Of a stretch of 64,000 nt of DNA, positions 4,117 to 35,200 are shown in pieces (position 1 is the first letter of the stretch; every line of letters starts with the position of its first letter). Position numbers and translations under genes: made by a program. The stretch comes from Pseudomonas quebecensis (GTDB lineage Bacteria; Pseudomonadota; Gammaproteobacteria; Pseudomonadales; Pseudomonadaceae), in contig NZ_CP112866.1 of NCBI RefSeq assembly GCF_026410085.1, positions 1,364,001-1,428,000 on the forward strand, in the 5' to 3' direction. Below the pieces are notes generated by a model, which did no database searches, was not told the DNA's origin, and saw nothing but the letters and a program-made list of their open reading frames with translations.

Positions 4117-5010
4117 ATGGAGTTCAGTCAATTGCGCATCTTCCAAGCTGTGGCCGAAGAGGGCTCCATCACCCGCGCGGCCGAGCGCCTGCACCGCGTG
4201 CCGTCGAACCTGTCGACTCGCCTCAAGCAGATGGAGGAACAGCTCGGCGTCGAATTGTTCGTGCGCGAACGTCAGCGCTTGCAGCTGTCCCCGGCCGGCA
4301 AAGTCTTGCTGGACTACAGCACGCGGCTATTGGCCTTGCATGACGAAGCCCACGGCGCGGTGCAAGGTGGCCAACCGGCCGGGGATTTTGTGCTGGGCAG
4401 CATGTACAGCACCGCTGCGATTCACTTGCCGACGTTGCTGGCGCGTTATCACAAGGCTTACCCGATGGTGAACCTGCAGGTCCAGTCGGCGCCCAGCGGC
4501 GAATTGCTTGAAGGCCTGATCACCGGACGCCTGGACGCGGCCTTGGTGGACGGCCCGCTGACCATCGCCTCCCTGGACGGGATCCCACTATGTGAGGAGC
4601 GCCTGGTGCTGATCTGTGAAGCGGACCACCCCCCGGTACGCGGGCCGCAGGATGTGGCCGGCCGCTCAGTGTTCACCTTCCGCCGCAGCTGCGCCTACCG
4701 TACGCGTCTGGAAAGCTGGTTTGCCCAGGATCGCGTAGCCATGGGCCGCGCCATCGAGATTGAGTCATATCAGGGCATGCTCGCCTGTGTCATCGCCGGC
4801 TCGGGAGTGGCATTGATGTCCGAATCCATGCTTGCCAGCCTGCCGGGCAGGGACAGCGTGTCCGTTCATCCGCTGATAGGGCAATTTGCCACTGCGACCA
4901 CCTGGTTAATGTGGCGAAAGGGTATGCTCGGCGCTAACCTCAACGCATGGATCGACCTGCAGCAAAAAGGCAAGGCCGAGGTGCTGTCGGACACGCGCGC
5001 GATTGCTTGA
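4117..5010 (+). CDS. LysR family transcriptional regulator
   Basis: A 297-residue LysR regulator. The N-terminal winged helix (residues 1-60) carries the usual FQAVAEEGSITRAAERL helix and SNLSTRLKQMEEQLG recognition region; a periplasmic-binding-like sensor domain follows. ATG 4117 begins the canonical Met-Glu-Phe-x-x-Leu-Arg-Ile-Phe start and has GGAGAAAGG just upstream. The 12-base longer TTG start is less likely. It is divergent from the YbfB-type MFS gene, an arrangement in which the regulator normally controls both. A TTGACT (4060-4065) followed by TAATAG (4081-4086) could be its promoter, though the 15-base spacer is short. The inducer cannot be read from the sequence. Confidence 0.9.
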   Translation: MEFSQLRIFQAVAEEGSITRAAERLHRVPSNLSTRLKQMEEQLGVELFVRERQRLQLSPAGKVLLDYSTRLLALHDEAHGAVQGGQPAGDFVLGSMYSTAAIHLPTLLARYHKAYPMVNLQVQSAPSGELLEGLITGRLDAALVDGPLTIASLDGIPLCEERLVLICEADHPPVRGPQDVAGRSVFTFRRSCAYRTRLESWFAQDRVAMGRAIEIESYQGMLACVIAGSGVALMSESMLASLPGRDSVSVHPLIGQFATATTWLMWRKGMLGANLNAWIDLQQKGKAEVLSDTRAIA

Positions 5011-5169
5011 GCGATCCGTCAGGATTCGGACCGATTCGGTAATAGTTCGTTGTGGTTTGGTTCAAGCAATGCGTAGTACTTAGGGCTATTATCAGTAGGA
5101 AGCGGCGACATTTTATGTAAGGCAATTCAGCTACCGCCGATCCGCATTACCCTCAAAGGGGGCACCACT

Positions 5170-5292
5170 ATGAAAGAGAAAATTCAAACCTGGCTCCATG
5201 ACCTCGGCGTCGCGCTGGGCCTGATCGAGCCGCCGCTGCAACCGGTGCCGATTCGTACGGATGATGAACAGCGTCGCCCACGTCGCCGGTAA
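5170..5292 (+). CDS. PA1414-family small protein
   Basis: A 40-residue protein that starts MKEKIQTWLHDLGVALG and ends with a basic tail (RRPRRR). I recognise it as the PA1414 family of pseudomonads: amphipathic N-terminal helix, then IEPPLQP, then a charged tail. A GGGGG purine run lies 8-12 bases before the ATG. In P. aeruginosa the PA1414 locus is strongly expressed under low oxygen and, as I recall, also gives rise to the small RNA SicX. Neighbouring gbuA-gbuR (PA1421-PA1422 homologues) supports the synteny. No good Anr dyad is present; a TATTAT at 5087-5092 could be a -10. The function of the peptide is unknown. Confidence 0.75.
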   Translation: MKEKIQTWLHDLGVALGLIEPPLQPVPIRTDDEQRRPRRR

Positions 5293-5325
5293 TCCGCGGT
5301 TGATAGGACACTGAGGACCCCACCG

Positions 5326-5360
5326 CGGGAGAGGGCTTGCTGTGGCAAGCTCCCTCGCCA
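5326..5360. repeat. Degenerate REP-like palindrome (GAGGGAGCTTGC core)
   Basis: GAGGGCTTGC (5331-5340) pairs imperfectly with GCAAGCTCCCTC (5345-5356) around a TGTG loop. The right arm read on the minus strand gives TGGCGAGGGAGCTTGC, the core of one SBW25 REP family. The left arm is two bases short, so the element is decayed. It follows the PA1414-like gene and could also act as its transcript end. Confidence 0.6.
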
Positions 5361-5512
5361 ATAAGATACTTATGCTTCCCTGCCTGTCAGACTTTCGTCT
5401 TCAAGCGTCGGAATCAGACTACTTATTTGTCAGAATCGGCTGGCTTAGTTAATTCGAAAAATCAGCGTAGAAAATTCTCCAGCGCCTACTTGAACCTGCT
5501 GGAGATGAGGAC

Positions 5513-7615
5513 ATGACCCTCTCTTGTGTGCCGCCCGTCGTCGCCTCACTGATCGCCACCCTAGACACAGTCTTACACATCGCTCCGGTGTCGAGACGCT
5601 GGCGGGCCGAGGCTCCCGGCAATGTCGTGTTTCTTCCCCCAACCATCCCCCAACAAACGCTGCTGTTGCAGATCGCCCTGTTGCGCCCGTCCACATTGAT
5701 TGTCGCGGACCAAGTCATCGATGCCGACCTCATTGAGCGATGGCGCGTCGCTCACCCGTTTGGCGACCTTTGTCTGATTCGTAGAGGCACCAGCCTGGAT
5801 AAAGTACGGCTGGACCTGTGCGAAGCGAACCATATCCGGGTGATCAATACCCCAGGCGTGAACGCGCCGCATGTGGCGGCGTATGTGGCGCACTGGCTGA
5901 CGCTTTCTAACGATACGATGCCCCTGGATATTTGTGTGCTCGGATACGGAAACGTCGGTAAAGAGCTGGTTAAATTGCTGTTGAAACAAGATTCGGACGC
6001 TCGGATCAGGGTTTTGGAACGAAAAAGTCGAATCCTGAACAATAGAGGGAGCGCTCAACTCGATAATAGAGTTTCATTTTTTGATGATTGGCATGAGGCA
6101 ATGAAGGGGGCCCATGCTGTAGCTATCTGCTTATCGCTGAATGAAGAGTCTGCTCATCGTATTGATCAGACGCTTATACAGTGTCTACACAGTGATGCTC
6201 GCTTGATCTGCGTCGCCAAGCCAGATGTGTTCAGTAGTGAGGCTTTGCGCGCGTTGGCGGTAACTGACGATGTCCAGCTTATTCTGGACTATGGCCCTGC
6301 GACGCTGGAGGCGTTTCGGATTCGCGCAAAGGAGCTCGACTGCGCCATTGCAACTTGGCGCAGACCGCCGATGCTCACTACACATGCGGCTACAACCGAA
6401 AACTGCAATTGCGACTTGGATTACGCGGTCAGTGTTCAATTGAGCTTGACGGCTTTACGTGGGCTTGTAAGGCGTAAGCTTACACAGCCACTGACGATTC
6501 CTTCTCAGCCAGCAAATGCCGGTGCGCCGCAGGTATCTATTATCGGGCGAGGTATCAATGGCCTGCTTCAAGCCGTAATGTTGCGTCTGGCAAATTATCG
6601 TGTGGTGGTATATGGCGGAAACTCACAGAACGATGGTGCCAGTCATAAGCTCGTGAACATGCGCCATATGTCAGCAACAGAGACCATGGCAAAACCACTG
6701 CACAACGACTACTTATTTCCCATAAATCAATATTTGACTGTTGAGTGCAATCGCGCTGGTATCGAGTTGTTTGAGAAGCTACTTGTCGACAATCCGTCAT
6801 TGGCGCCCTTCACGCGATCAAAGATCGTAAGAGCCTATACCGATAATATCAGCGACGTCGACGCAGCGATTGGCGAGCAACGCGATATTGAAAATAGACC
6901 TTGGCCGAGTGGTAAGCCGGGATCTGAACTGAAAGCGCTTACTCAGCAAACATTCAGCGCAGAGTTTGGAGTTCCTGGGGTCGATCAGGCGGTTGAAGTA
7001 TCGGGGTACGATCTGGAGTTTATCCAGCTGATGGCTGAGATAGAGGTACTTTTGCGGCGTGCCGGGGTACAGTTCAGGTCCCGGCACCTGAGTGCGGTCG
7101 AAATTGCCCAGCTCAGTAGAGAGCACATTGTTGTCACTGCCATGGGGATAGAGGAACAAGCAGTGCTCCCAATCATCGGCTGGTTTTTCAAACTGCGCGC
7201 GATGGCTAATGAAGGTGCAAGTATACGTGGGCTTAAGTTGCAGTATGAACTGCCCATCGGCGTCATGAATTGCCGCCTGGACGAAGATTGCATTTTGATC
7301 TCCGGTGGGCAGGTTCCGCCGGGCTCATCACCGGAATACAAAGAGCAAATACTCGCCGCCTGTCTGGCAGCCGTTTCTAGACACTTTCCGACGTCTTATC
7401 GAATGGCTGTTGAGACCGGTGACTTGCACGTTATCGAATGTGCCAGGCCGGGCACCCAGGATGGTTTATCCATCGTGTACTACTGCGCCCACAACCGCAT
7501 CGCCGCCGGCGGAACCTATGCCGCAGGCACCACACAGGGGTTGCTGTGGGCCGCTCTGGTGCAGGAAATTATCCAGGCCAAAGCGCCTATGGTCTTGGCC
7601 ATGAACGCCCACTGA
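5513..7615 (+). CDS. Fused D-2-hydroxyacid-dehydrogenase-like / FAD-dependent oxidoreductase-like protein
   Basis: A 700-residue protein of two enzyme-like halves. Residues 1-325 resemble a D-2-hydroxyacid dehydrogenase: substrate-domain motif IRVINTPGVNAP (108-119), an NAD-type Rossmann turn GYGNVG (144-149), and PMLTTHAATTE around H291, where the family places its catalytic His. The family's catalytic Arg region reads ICVAKPDVF, with Lys236 where Arg is expected. Residues about 340-700 begin with a second dinucleotide turn, GRGING (345-350), of the D-amino-acid-oxidase FAD type, and end AAGGTYAAGTTQGLLWAAL like the FAD-contacting C-terminus of that family. The start has a purine-rich GATGAGGA upstream. 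The central part is visibly less GC-rich than its neighbours, suggesting transfer. It stands alone between the PA1414-like gene and the gbuA operon. Substrate and pathway are unknown to me. Confidence 0.72.
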   Translation: MTLSCVPPVVASLIATLDTVLHIAPVSRRWRAEAPGNVVFLPPTIPQQTLLLQIALLRPSTLIVADQVIDADLIERWRVAHPFGDLCLIRRGTSLDKVRLDLCEANHIRVINTPGVNAPHVAAYVAHWLTLSNDTMPLDICVLGYGNVGKELVKLLLKQDSDARIRVLERKSRILNNRGSAQLDNRVSFFDDWHEAMKGAHAVAICLSLNEESAHRIDQTLIQCLHSDARLICVAKPDVFSSEALRALAVTDDVQLILDYGPATLEAFRIRAKELDCAIATWRRPPMLTTHAATTENCNCDLDYAVSVQLSLTALRGLVRRKLTQPLTIPSQPANAGAPQVSIIGRGINGLLQAVMLRLANYRVVVYGGNSQNDGASHKLVNMRHMSATETMAKPLHNDYLFPINQYLTVECNRAGIELFEKLLVDNPSLAPFTRSKIVRAYTDNISDVDAAIGEQRDIENRPWPSGKPGSELKALTQQTFSAEFGVPGVDQAVEVSGYDLEFIQLMAEIEVLLRRAGVQFRSRHLSAVEIAQLSREHIVVTAMGIEEQAVLPIIGWFFKLRAMANEGASIRGLKLQYELPIGVMNCRLDEDCILISGGQVPPGSSPEYKEQILAACLAAVSRHFPTSYRMAVETGDLHVIECARPGTQDGLSIVYYCAHNRIAAGGTYAAGTTQGLLWAALVQEIIQAKAPMVLAMNAH

Positions 7616-7617
7616 AA

Positions 7618-7648
7618 AACGGGTGCGACCTCCGACGTCGCACCCGTT
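7618..7648 (-). terminator. Terminator between the fusion gene and the symporter
   Basis: A perfect 12-bp stem, AACGGGTGCGAC (7618-7629) and GTCGCACCCGTT (7637-7648), with a 7-base loop. On the minus strand the stem is followed by TTTTTC, so it best serves the symporter operon. It may also limit transcription from the convergent fusion gene. Confidence 0.75.
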
Positions 7649-7665
7649 GAAGAAATTCCCGCGCC

Positions 7666-9048
7666 TCACACCGCGCGCGCAGCCACACCTTGTGGTTTGC
7701 GCGACAGCAGGCTCACCGCCACGAAACTCACCAAGCCCACTGCCAGGCTGTAGTAGATCGGCGTGTTTGCATCCAGCCCGTCCTTGAACATGAACACCAG
7801 CGCCGTCACAAAGCCCAGGGTCATGGAAGCAATGGCACCGGACGTGGTGGCGCGCTTCCAGAAGATCGCCCCCATCAACGGGATCAGCATACCGCCCACC
7901 AGCAGGTTGTAGGCCAGGGTCAGGGCGCTGATGACGTCATTGACCACCAGCGCAATGCCCAGCACTGCGGTGCCGGTCAGTAGGGTGAACAGACGGTTGA
8001 TGCTCAGGCTCGATTGTTTACCGCCACGCAGTCGGGGCAGCAGGTCTTCGGTCAATACCGTGGACGCTGCCAGCAGGCCGGCGCTGGCGGTGGACATCAT
8101 GGCCGCCAGGGCCGCAGCGATCACCAGGCCGCGAATGCCGTCCGGCAGCGACAGTTTCACAATGGCGGCGAAGGCGTTGTTGACGTTGTCCAGGTCCGGG
8201 ATCAGCACATGGGCCGCCATGCCGATCAGCGCACAGGCCAGCCCGTAGAGCACGCAATAGAAGCCGGCGAAGGTCCCGGCGTACTGCGCGACCTTTTCAT
8301 CGCGGGCGGTGAAGACGCGTTGCCAGATGTCCTGGCCAATCAGGATGCCGAAAAAGTAGATCATGAAGTAGGTAATGATCGTGTCCCAGCCTATCGCGGT
8401 GAAGCTGAAACTCGACGCCGGCAGCTTGGCCACCAGTTCGTCCCAGCCACCGACGCGATACAGGCAGATCGGCAGCAGAATAAACATCAGGCCGACGGTC
8501 TTGATCACGAACTGCACGATGTCGGTGAGGGTCAGCGACCACATGCCGCCGATGGTCGAATACACCACCACGACGCCACCGCCCAGCAGCACCGAGACCC
8601 AGAACGGCAGGCCGAACAGCACTTGCAGCACGGTGCCGATGGCCAGGATCGACGTCACGCCGATCATCAGCGCATACGCCAGCATGATCACCGCGCTGGC
8701 CTGGCGTGCCATGGGGTTGTAGCGTTTTTCCAGCACCTGGGTCACGGTGAAGATCTTCAGCTTGAGCAGCGGCTTGGCCAGGAACAGGTTCAGCGCGATG
8801 ATCCCCATGCCCAGCGCAGCGCACAGCCAAAAGCCGGAGATTCCATGCACATAGCCCAGGCGCACCGTGCCGACGGTGGACGCGCCGCCCAGCACCGTGG
8901 CGGCCATGGTGCCCATGTACAGCGACGGGCCCAGGTTGCGGCCGGCCACCAGGTAGTCTTCGTGGGTCTTGGCGCGACGCATGCCGTAATAGCCGAGCAC
9001 GAGCATGCCGGCGGCGTAGATGAGTACGACGAATAAATCCAAAGCCAT
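7666..9048 (-). CDS. Sodium:solute symporter (SSS family)
   Basis: A 460-residue transporter with about 13 hydrophobic segments. DYLVAGRNLGPSLYMGTMAAT at the N-terminus and GGMWSLTLTDIVQFV in the middle are standard SSS motifs. I chose ATG 9048 (MALDLF) rather than the longer frame, because the upstream residues are polar read-through from the preceding gene; GGAG lies about 12 bases upstream. It is the last gene of the gbuA operon and matches PA1418 in the equivalent PAO1 cluster. By context it may import guanidino compounds or a related nitrogen source, but no substrate motif proves this. Confidence 0.87.
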   Translation of the reverse strand: MALDLFVVLIYAAGMLVLGYYGMRRAKTHEDYLVAGRNLGPSLYMGTMAATVLGGASTVGTVRLGYVHGISGFWLCAALGMGIIALNLFLAKPLLKLKIFTVTQVLEKRYNPMARQASAVIMLAYALMIGVTSILAIGTVLQVLFGLPFWVSVLLGGGVVVVYSTIGGMWSLTLTDIVQFVIKTVGLMFILLPICLYRVGGWDELVAKLPASSFSFTAIGWDTIITYFMIYFFGILIGQDIWQRVFTARDEKVAQYAGTFAGFYCVLYGLACALIGMAAHVLIPDLDNVNNAFAAIVKLSLPDGIRGLVIAAALAAMMSTASAGLLAASTVLTEDLLPRLRGGKQSSLSINRLFTLLTGTAVLGIALVVNDVISALTLAYNLLVGGMLIPLMGAIFWKRATTSGAIASMTLGFVTALVFMFKDGLDANTPIYYSLAVGLVSFVAVSLLSRKPQGVAARAV

Positions 9049-34841: not shown

Positions 34842-34870
34842 TTGACGCTCCACCCCCAACCCACTAACCT
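34842..34870 (+). promoter_or_regulatory. Promoter of the cobalamin operon
   Basis: TTGACG (34842-34847) and TAACCT (34865-34870) are separated by 17 bases. Transcription would start near 34877, right at the 5' end of the riboswitch. Confidence 0.65.
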
Positions 34871-34879
34871 TCGCGGCTT

Positions 34880-35110
34880 GTTTCAGGTGCTCTGTGACCC
34901 AAGGGTCGACGGAGTGAAACAGGGAAGCCGGTGAGTGAGCGCACTTAGACACAGTGCTGCCGCAATTCCGGCGCTGCCCCCGCAACGGTAAATGAGTCAA
35001 GACGCTGCCTTTGGCCACTGTATCGCATGCGATATGGGAAGGCGCAGCGTGGGTCCGCTCCTGGTTCGCCAGGGTACGGCCACTTATGAGCCCGGAGACC
35101 GGCCTGGACC
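34880..35110 (+). ncRNA. Cobalamin (adenosylcobalamin) riboswitch
   Basis: The leader of the cob operon has the conserved elements of a class-I cobalamin riboswitch in order: an initial paired segment with GGTG at 34887-34890; AGGGAAGCCGGTG near 34921; the B12-box-like GCTGCCCCCGCAACGGTAA (34973-34991); and the closing GAGCCCGGAGACCGGCC (35088-35104). Bound adenosylcobalamin is expected to hide the cobO ribosome site or end transcription. The cobO ATG lies about 90 bases downstream. Confidence 0.93.
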
Positions 35111-35200
35111 ATTCAACAGCATCACGGTGGGCGATGCTTGGCTGTCTGATTGTGTTTTTTCCTGCCCGCCGTTTTTGTCCAGCCCCAACGGAGAGCTGCC

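Follow-up and report, generated by a model that had tools for sequence, protein, structure and literature searches.

Enzymes of the DAO type consist of a flavin adenine dinucleotide (FAD) core with an inserted substrate domain, and in FAD oxidases the second strand usually ends in an acidic residue. For the 2-hydroxyacid dehydrogenases (2HADHs), the accessible part of PMC6303947 reports that more than 90% conserve Gly73, Arg230, Glu259, and His277 as substrate-binding or substrate-activating residues, and that Asn227 and Gly231 flank Arg230. Here we describe a gene, located in a 64,000-nucleotide stretch of the Pseudomonas quebecensis genome (NZ_CP112866.1, positions 1,364,001 to 1,428,000; the window), whose 700-residue product joins a 2HADH-like half to a DAO-like half. 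The two-domain oxidoreductase encoded here is real and conserved, and all four of the 2HADH substrate residues are changed in it, three of them near-invariantly (Ser94, Lys236, and Thr264). We hold this architecture and the loss of the standard 2HADH site, taken together, to be very nearly certain. The features on which this rests are as follows, with residue counts here and below taken over 78 long protein records unless another n is stated.

5513..7615, plus strand: gene for the long-form 700-residue fusion protein (open reading frame (ORF), Pfam, AlphaFold2 model).
5513..6517, plus strand: N-terminal half, residues 1-335, 2HADH fold (2-Hacid_dh_C at 138-248; Foldseek match 4njo).
5942..5959, plus strand: GYGNVG, residues 144-149, nucleotide-binding loop of the first half (the three motif glycines checked, 26/26).
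6209..6223, plus strand: CVAKP, residues 233-237, at the Asn-x-x-Arg-Gly position of 2HADHs (alignment to 4nfy and 4njm).
6518..7585, plus strand: C-terminal half, residues 336-691, FAD glycine/sarcosine-oxidase (DAO) fold.
6545..6562, plus strand: GRGING, residues 345-350, nucleotide-binding loop of the FAD half (G345 78/78).
7445..7465, plus strand: RPGTQDG, residues 645-651 (R645 77/78, D650 77/78, G651 78/78).

The ORF contains no internal stops, and AlphaFold2 confidently predicts two complete folds in the protein (predicted local distance difference test score 90.2; predicted template modelling (TM) score 0.89), which bears out a first-pass annotation of this DNA that had proposed two separate dinucleotide folds in a single frame; the positions it gave for GYGNVG, GRGING, and Lys236 are correct in the translation. 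The two domains it had expected, 2-Hacid_dh_C (PF02826; residues 138-248, E 1.8e-7) and DAO (PF01266; residues 341-683, E 1.6e-8), both lie above the Pfam gathering score, and a match to 2-Hacid_dh lies under the cut-off. When the 26 full-length proteins of alignment A1 were scanned singly at E<=0.001, 2-Hacid_dh_C was found in 26, DAO in 25, and 2-Hacid_dh in 19. Both Pfam domains are also detected separately in diverged homologues such as P0094 and P0110 (DAO being under the cut-off in the latter), and structure matches were obtained for each half with Foldseek and VIA. Among 112 protein records, 78, including that of the window protein (P0001), are at least 620 residues long and align end to end, with identities to P0001 of 40-83%; because so many records align along the whole length, the fusion arrangement is not a product of chance. 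Searches of Pfam, NCBIfam, PDB sequences, PHROGs, and PADLOC returned no named sequence family that spans the full length, the last two collections holding no family for the fusion protein. Neither a single fold nor a known full-length family, the two outcomes named beforehand as contradicting the proposal, was therefore seen. Literature searches found no paper on such a fusion, a weak negative in that subscription journals were thinly covered.

The first half retains the 2HADH fold and its NAD-binding domain. Residues ~1-335 match 4njo in Foldseek with a target-normalised TM score of 0.70 and a root-mean-square deviation (rmsd) of 4.5, and the best profile match among PDB sequences is 4nfy (E 4.8e-14). 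Alignment to 4nfy was used to place the equivalents of the 2HADH residues, with the His position placed by motif alignment. Specifically, where 5v7n has the catalytic Arg230 and 4nfy the corresponding Arg, 77/78 records have Lys (Lys236) and one has Met; the Glu259 position, placed by spacing count from Asp259 of the window protein, is Thr264 (77/78), and residues 260-265 include no conserved acidic residue; the Gly73 position is Ser94 (78/78); and the positions of Asn227 and Gly231 are Cys233 (76/78) and Pro237 (78/78). At residue 291, the equivalent of His277, Gln is found in 58/78 records and His in only 5/78. Thus the two dinucleotide-fold halves and the lack of a full-length named family stand as first annotated, as does the replacement of Arg by Lys236, which proves to be one part of a wholly changed site; the retention of the catalytic His as a family feature does not stand. 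What is conserved instead is a new set of substrate-site residues comprising Arg90 (77/78), Arg91 (78/78), Ser94, Lys236, and Thr264, together with Arg271, Trp282, Cys298, Asp301, and Asp303 (78/78 each). Since the fold is kept and the known catalytic site is gone, we do not file the first half as a working 2HADH; its sequence points to a rebuilt 2HADH fold rather than a standard hydroxyacid dehydrogenase. Arg170, directly after the second strand, is kept in 71/78 records, which makes NADP(H) a more likely ligand than NAD, and the first half probably binds NADP(H).

These residues bear on how the two halves might work. The first-pass annotation had suggested a bifunctional enzyme in which a standard NAD-dependent hydroxyacid dehydrogenase and a D-amino-acid oxidase exchange a 2-keto or imino acid. 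We consider such channelling very improbable, for the 2HADH triad of Arg, Glu, and His and the substrate-binding Gly are all replaced. Moreover, the halves look separable: shortened forms of the gene (described below) have lost segments of the FAD half and mostly keep the invariant residues of the first half, which makes an obligatory hand-over less likely. That the two halves act on a shared substrate in any manner is doubtful. A second explanation is that the N-terminal half is non-catalytic and, by binding NADP(H), plays a regulatory or structural part in controlling the flavin oxidase. The 2HADH fold serves as a nucleotide sensor in the C-terminal-binding proteins, and CtBP1 (6cdr) is a weak profile match to the window protein; the standard catalytic residues are gone, and the glycines of the nucleotide loop and Arg170 are kept. 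Against this, Ser94, Lys236, Arg271, Trp282, Cys298, and Asp301 occur in 77-78 of the 78 records, a strictness like that of a catalytic site, and we judge a purely non-catalytic half unlikely. For catalysis with NADP(H) by the N-terminal half, we put the odds at about even.

The FAD half has the complete DAO fold. Its conserved features include an intact GxGxxG loop (G345, G347, and G350 each 26/26), R384 (78/78) followed by H385, T391, N398, K575, and the RPGxxDG motif that includes R645. We take this motif to resemble the carboxylate-binding RPxxPD motif of glycine oxidase (ThiO) and DadA. The FAD half of the long form is probably an active amine oxidase or dehydrogenase. Searching with the FAD half alone gave at least 46 matches, all from the same fusion family (short forms, fusions, and partial pieces), and no complete stand-alone FAD half was found among the matches listed; FAD-only pieces of full domain length (P0113 and P0115) sit on contigs of 1.3-1.6 kb, and partial FAD-only pieces (P0118, P0122, and P0123) sit on longer contigs.

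The reading that we prefer, with a probability of roughly 0.6, is that the long form is a flavoenzyme that oxidises amines and whose NADP(H)-binding half has been repurposed. The substrate of the FAD half would be a small amino acid or an N-carboxyalkyl amine, whose C-N bond would be oxidised to give an imine and whose carboxylate would be held by Arg645. The N-terminal half would bind NADP(H), as Arg170 suggests, and may act on, or respond to, the imine or oxo product or the redox partner of that product, in a reaction that would differ from the standard His/Glu/Arg mechanism of hydroxyacid dehydrogenases. This reading is favoured by the two confident folds and the structure matches of each half, by the detection of both Pfam domains in diverged homologues, by the residue counts, by median ratios of nonsynonymous to synonymous change of 0.145-0.189 between long genes, and by the ABC transporter genes beside three of the copies outside the main site (see below). 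Three observations weigh against this reading. First, Gly368 is found in 78/78 records at the approximate end of the second strand of the FAD half, where an acidic residue is usual, so that FAD binding is predicted from the fold alone. Second, the automatic names of the records conflict (amino acid dehydrogenase, NAD(P)-dependent oxidoreductase, and erythronate-4-phosphate dehydrogenase). Third, the link to an ABC transporter seen beside some copies of the gene (see below) is absent at the main chromosomal site, where the neighbouring transporter gene is convergent.

The family is narrow, being confined to some Pseudomonas and a few Burkholderiales. A protein search found at least 110 proteins, mostly from Pseudomonas and 66-83% identical over nearly the full length, and among the matches listed a few were 40-49% identical, including ones from Variovorax defluvii and a Ramlibacter metagenome-assembled genome; a profile search added two records. 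In genome samples, carriers numbered 23/398 across the genus, 1/369 across the class (with profile A3; the window's own genome), and, with a short-form query, 10/392 genomes and 1/90 genera among relatives, none beyond the carriers of the genus sample. No match was found in plasmid and phage collections by tblastn, and none in viral contigs to patterns back-translated from P0001 alone, which can reach close relatives only. Three records labelled P. lurida differ markedly, one (L024, strain 114A4) being identical to the window gene, one (P0026) 71% identical to it, and one (P0106) a short form. The species names given to members of this group look unreliable.

In relatives of P. fluorescens a single chromosomal site holds the long form, a form of ~520 residues, or no gene. 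The comparison covered 38 loci (the window and L024-L060), and 34 of them have the gene at this main site, flanked by a LysR gene on one side and by a convergent sodium:solute symporter gene on the other. We surveyed the site in 57 genomes of the genus whose LysR gene is at least 89% identical. Carriers numbered 23 (14 long and 9 short), each with a single match at E<=1e-60, two candidates having been scored per carrier genome. Of the 34 non-carriers, 33 were examined (G234 was left out), and 32 had no trace of the gene and one a relic (L101); in 30 of the 33 the LysR-symporter gap could be sized, at <=690 bp in 20, 881-967 bp in two, ~1550-1580 bp in seven, and 1745 bp in the relic. Two segments are missing in the short forms.

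6803..7012, plus strand: first segment missing in short forms, residues ~431-500 (boundaries vary).
7163..7462, plus strand: second segment missing in short forms, residues ~551-650.

Short forms thus retain residues 1-430, ~505-550, and ~650-690. In the model of the long form, the missing stretches contain strands 434-443, 490-501, 552-562, 584-590, 593-601, and 639-647, and the retained stretches contain the first beta-alpha-beta unit, strands 520-522 and 539-542, and the last strands and helix, a split that in the model appears to match that between substrate domain and FAD core in DAO enzymes. The frame is unbroken over 513-543 residues in 7/9 short loci. Among ten short or relic copies the broken ones are L047 (frameshifted), L052 (without residues 69-158), and L101 (the relic), and among 25 long copies at the site the start of one (L037) is disturbed. 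The idea that the short form arose once and cleanly was considered and rejected: the boundaries of the first deletion differ, partly shortened records exist (e.g. P0071 and P0073), and the short forms are not one clade in a tree of the tail. Changes between long and short labels number 13 on the tail tree and 22 on the N-terminal tree, where 31 records were labelled short, some of which (537-617 residues) are fragments or only partly shortened.

The form also carries no phylogenetic signal in the flanking genes. When the long and short labels of 34 loci, 9 of them short, were placed on a tree built from six such genes (6792 columns), they required 8 changes, about the mean for shuffled labels (8.02; 62.9% of shuffles gave 8 or fewer). 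A base-by-base comparison of six sister pairs, each with one short and one long gene, revealed in four (L034/L045, L041/L050, L027/L044, and window/L049) an inner tract of low identity flanked by identity at the species level, that is, a tract of intragenic exchange; the other two (L029/L046 and L042/L047) differ over the whole gene with no sharp tract. Along the gene, identity between L034 and L045 is 92-97%, then 70-80%, then 93-100%, and that between the window gene and L049 is 84-88%, then 54-69%, then 86-88%, with 88% from about base 1992. A recent in-frame deletion in the resident long gene was also considered as the source of the short forms, and this was rejected because the tails of the sharp sister pairs differ at synonymous sites as well (for L045/L034, dS is 0.06-0.17 in residues 1-335 and 1.07 in residues 371-555). 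In the window gene the differing tract falls within a region of low guanine plus cytosine (GC) content.

5912..7462, plus strand: low-GC middle, residues 134-650, differing from the sister short allele (GC content; window vs L049).

GC content is 60.2% for residues 1-133, 50.2% for 134-335, 52.0% for 336-650, and 60.8% for 651-700, against 61.8% for the whole window, which agrees with the lower GC of the middle section reported in the first annotation. These values fit an imported middle, the low-GC stretch covering the difference from L049, and GC is low across the family as well (0.53-0.61). Comparison of short records (27, one without the N-terminus) with their long partners gave a similar picture: for 17/26, several of them near-duplicates, a long partner is identical at 119 or more of 125 N-terminal residues and only 50-76% identical at 505-550. 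The short record P0087, for example, matches the window protein at 125/125 N-terminal and 36/36 C-terminal residues and at 101/196 within residues 134-335. A literature search on intragenic exchange between species in P. fluorescens listed no paper on this fusion gene.

The short forms could be the functionless loss stages of a decaying, dispensable accessory gene, with patchiness the outcome of gain and loss only. The broken and relic copies L047, L052, and L101, the varying deletion boundaries and partly shortened P0071 and P0073, and the lack of any trace at 32/33 non-carrier sites favour this explanation, as does one of two short-short pairs, L048/L051, in which the ratio of nonsynonymous to synonymous rates (dN/dS) is 0.22 (0.16-0.32) in the first half and 0.56 (0.35-0.98) in the FAD remnant, indicating relaxation of the latter. 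However, the other pair, L044/L052, shows no rise (0.18 and 0.20), 7/9 short loci have an unbroken frame, and the short clusters P0098 and P0106 hold 104 and 99 sequences. At the site, median dN/dS for residues 1-133, 134-335, and 371-555 is 0.187, 0.233, and 0.284 between short forms, well under 1, and 0.145, 0.189, and 0.160 between long forms. We judge such decay somewhat unlikely. Short records keep R90 and R91 in all 26 that have a letter there, K236 in 24/27, D259 in 25/27, and C298, D301, and D303 in 27/27, whereas R645 is gone in 26/27 and R384 remains in 8/27, a pattern suggesting that the first half tends to stay constrained after damage to the FAD half. We caution that recombination may have renewed the N-terminal half of short forms from long genes. 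A fuller proposal, to which we give little credence, is a structural polymorphism maintained across species in which the FAD oxidase half is either whole or stripped of substrate-domain segments, a null state exists besides, and the states are exchanged between relatives by intragenic recombination; the rebuilt NADP(H) half of short forms would then work alone, and the full-length protein would be a metabolic enzyme whose tail is gained and lost under niche-dependent selection. Under the reading that we prefer for the long form, the fusion gene would be a one-gene accessory trait of P. fluorescens-type bacteria, and its gain, shortening, and loss at a single site would be accompanied by recombination inside the gene.

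Four loci lie away from the main site (P. fragi L031, P. helleri L038, P. endophytica L035, and Pseudomonas sp. L032), and all carry full-length long forms. In three of the four the fusion gene precedes a gene for a solute-binding protein by 155-171 bp, both being read in the same direction, and Pfam supports an ABC transporter of the amino-acid type next to these copies, presumably aapJQM. No terminator-like or promoter-like sites were found in the 155-171 bp gap of L038 and L032, an observation of little weight given that 0.5-0.8 are expected by chance. In the window, one further feature lies just downstream of the gene.

7618-7648, in the gap separating the gene from the convergent symporter gene: inverted repeat of 15 bp that has a run of T on the minus-strand side.

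This repeat is probably the terminator of the symporter gene. There are no tandem repeats around the fusion gene, and the short repeat families present in 5000-7760, each of two copies and 18-21 nt long, are likely due to chance. Upstream of the gene, at 5170-5292 on the plus strand, is a 40-codon ORF (MKEKIQTWLHDLGVALGLIEPPLQPVPIRTDDEQRRPRRR) that is also present in the empty sites L092, L096, and L098. Its identity with PA1414/sicX of P. aeruginosa was considered and rejected, as the accessible part of PMC10247376 reports no PA1414 homologue in other Pseudomonas. Seven non-carrier sites (L093, L097, L103, L108, L118, L123, and L124) have an ORF of ~200-204 residues in the LysR-symporter gap, which in L093, the one tested, is an Amidase_2 protein (E 2.3e-17). 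In L093 this is followed by a lipoprotein-like ORF of 164 residues, and L110 has a similar ORF of ~141 residues without the amidase; an effector/immunity pair is possible, and the LysR-symporter site looks like a cargo spot. Elsewhere in the window, an ordinary cobalamin riboswitch (34868-35121, plus strand; 101.5 bits) lies just upstream of an ORF at 35150 that belongs to a run of cobalamin-synthesis genes and that we take to resemble cob(I)alamin adenosyltransferase.

Two points stand out from this analysis, the chemistry of the first half and the recombining long, short, and absent states at one site. If the N-terminal half is active, it would show that a 2HADH fold can be remodelled to carry out a different reaction at a Lys/Ser/Arg site and can be tethered to a flavin domain that oxidises amines. 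The three states in close relatives offer a natural comparison of whether the halves need one another, and they are a clear example of domain atrophy being spread through a bacterial population by recombination.

Among known systems, the 2HADH fold nearest to residues ~1-335 is that of type IIIK SERA, a phosphoglycerate dehydrogenase type, of Entamoeba histolytica (4njo, 4njm, and 4nfy). Like type IIIK, as described in the accessible text of PMC6303947, the first half lacks the catalytic Glu. In type IIIK the Arg is retained and the His is replaced by Lys, a signature that the window protein does not carry; the fusion has Lys at the Arg position, Ser at the Gly position, and a variable His position and, unlike type IIIK, is joined to an FAD half. 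That half is 11-17% identical to CmiS2, IdaA (iminodiacetate oxidase), ThiO (glycine oxidase), monomeric sarcosine oxidase, and D-arginine dehydrogenase, and the fusion family differs from the glycine/sarcosine-oxidase group in its invariant Gly368 and in having no complete stand-alone member among the matches listed. MnmC (3sgl) ranks first in Foldseek (715 alignment columns) and shares the layout of a Rossmann-type N-terminal half followed by a DAO half, but superposition of the whole fails (TM score 0.35-0.38, rmsd 19.9); the N-terminal half of MnmC is a methyltransferase, whereas that of the fusion is 2HADH-like, with no methyltransferase family detected in it by Pfam up to E 1. Finally, as in the domain atrophy described by Prakash and Bateman (2015; PMC4432964), the short forms have lost large core parts of a domain with the frame mostly open; what differs here is that full, atrophied, and absent versions share one site in close relatives and recombine.
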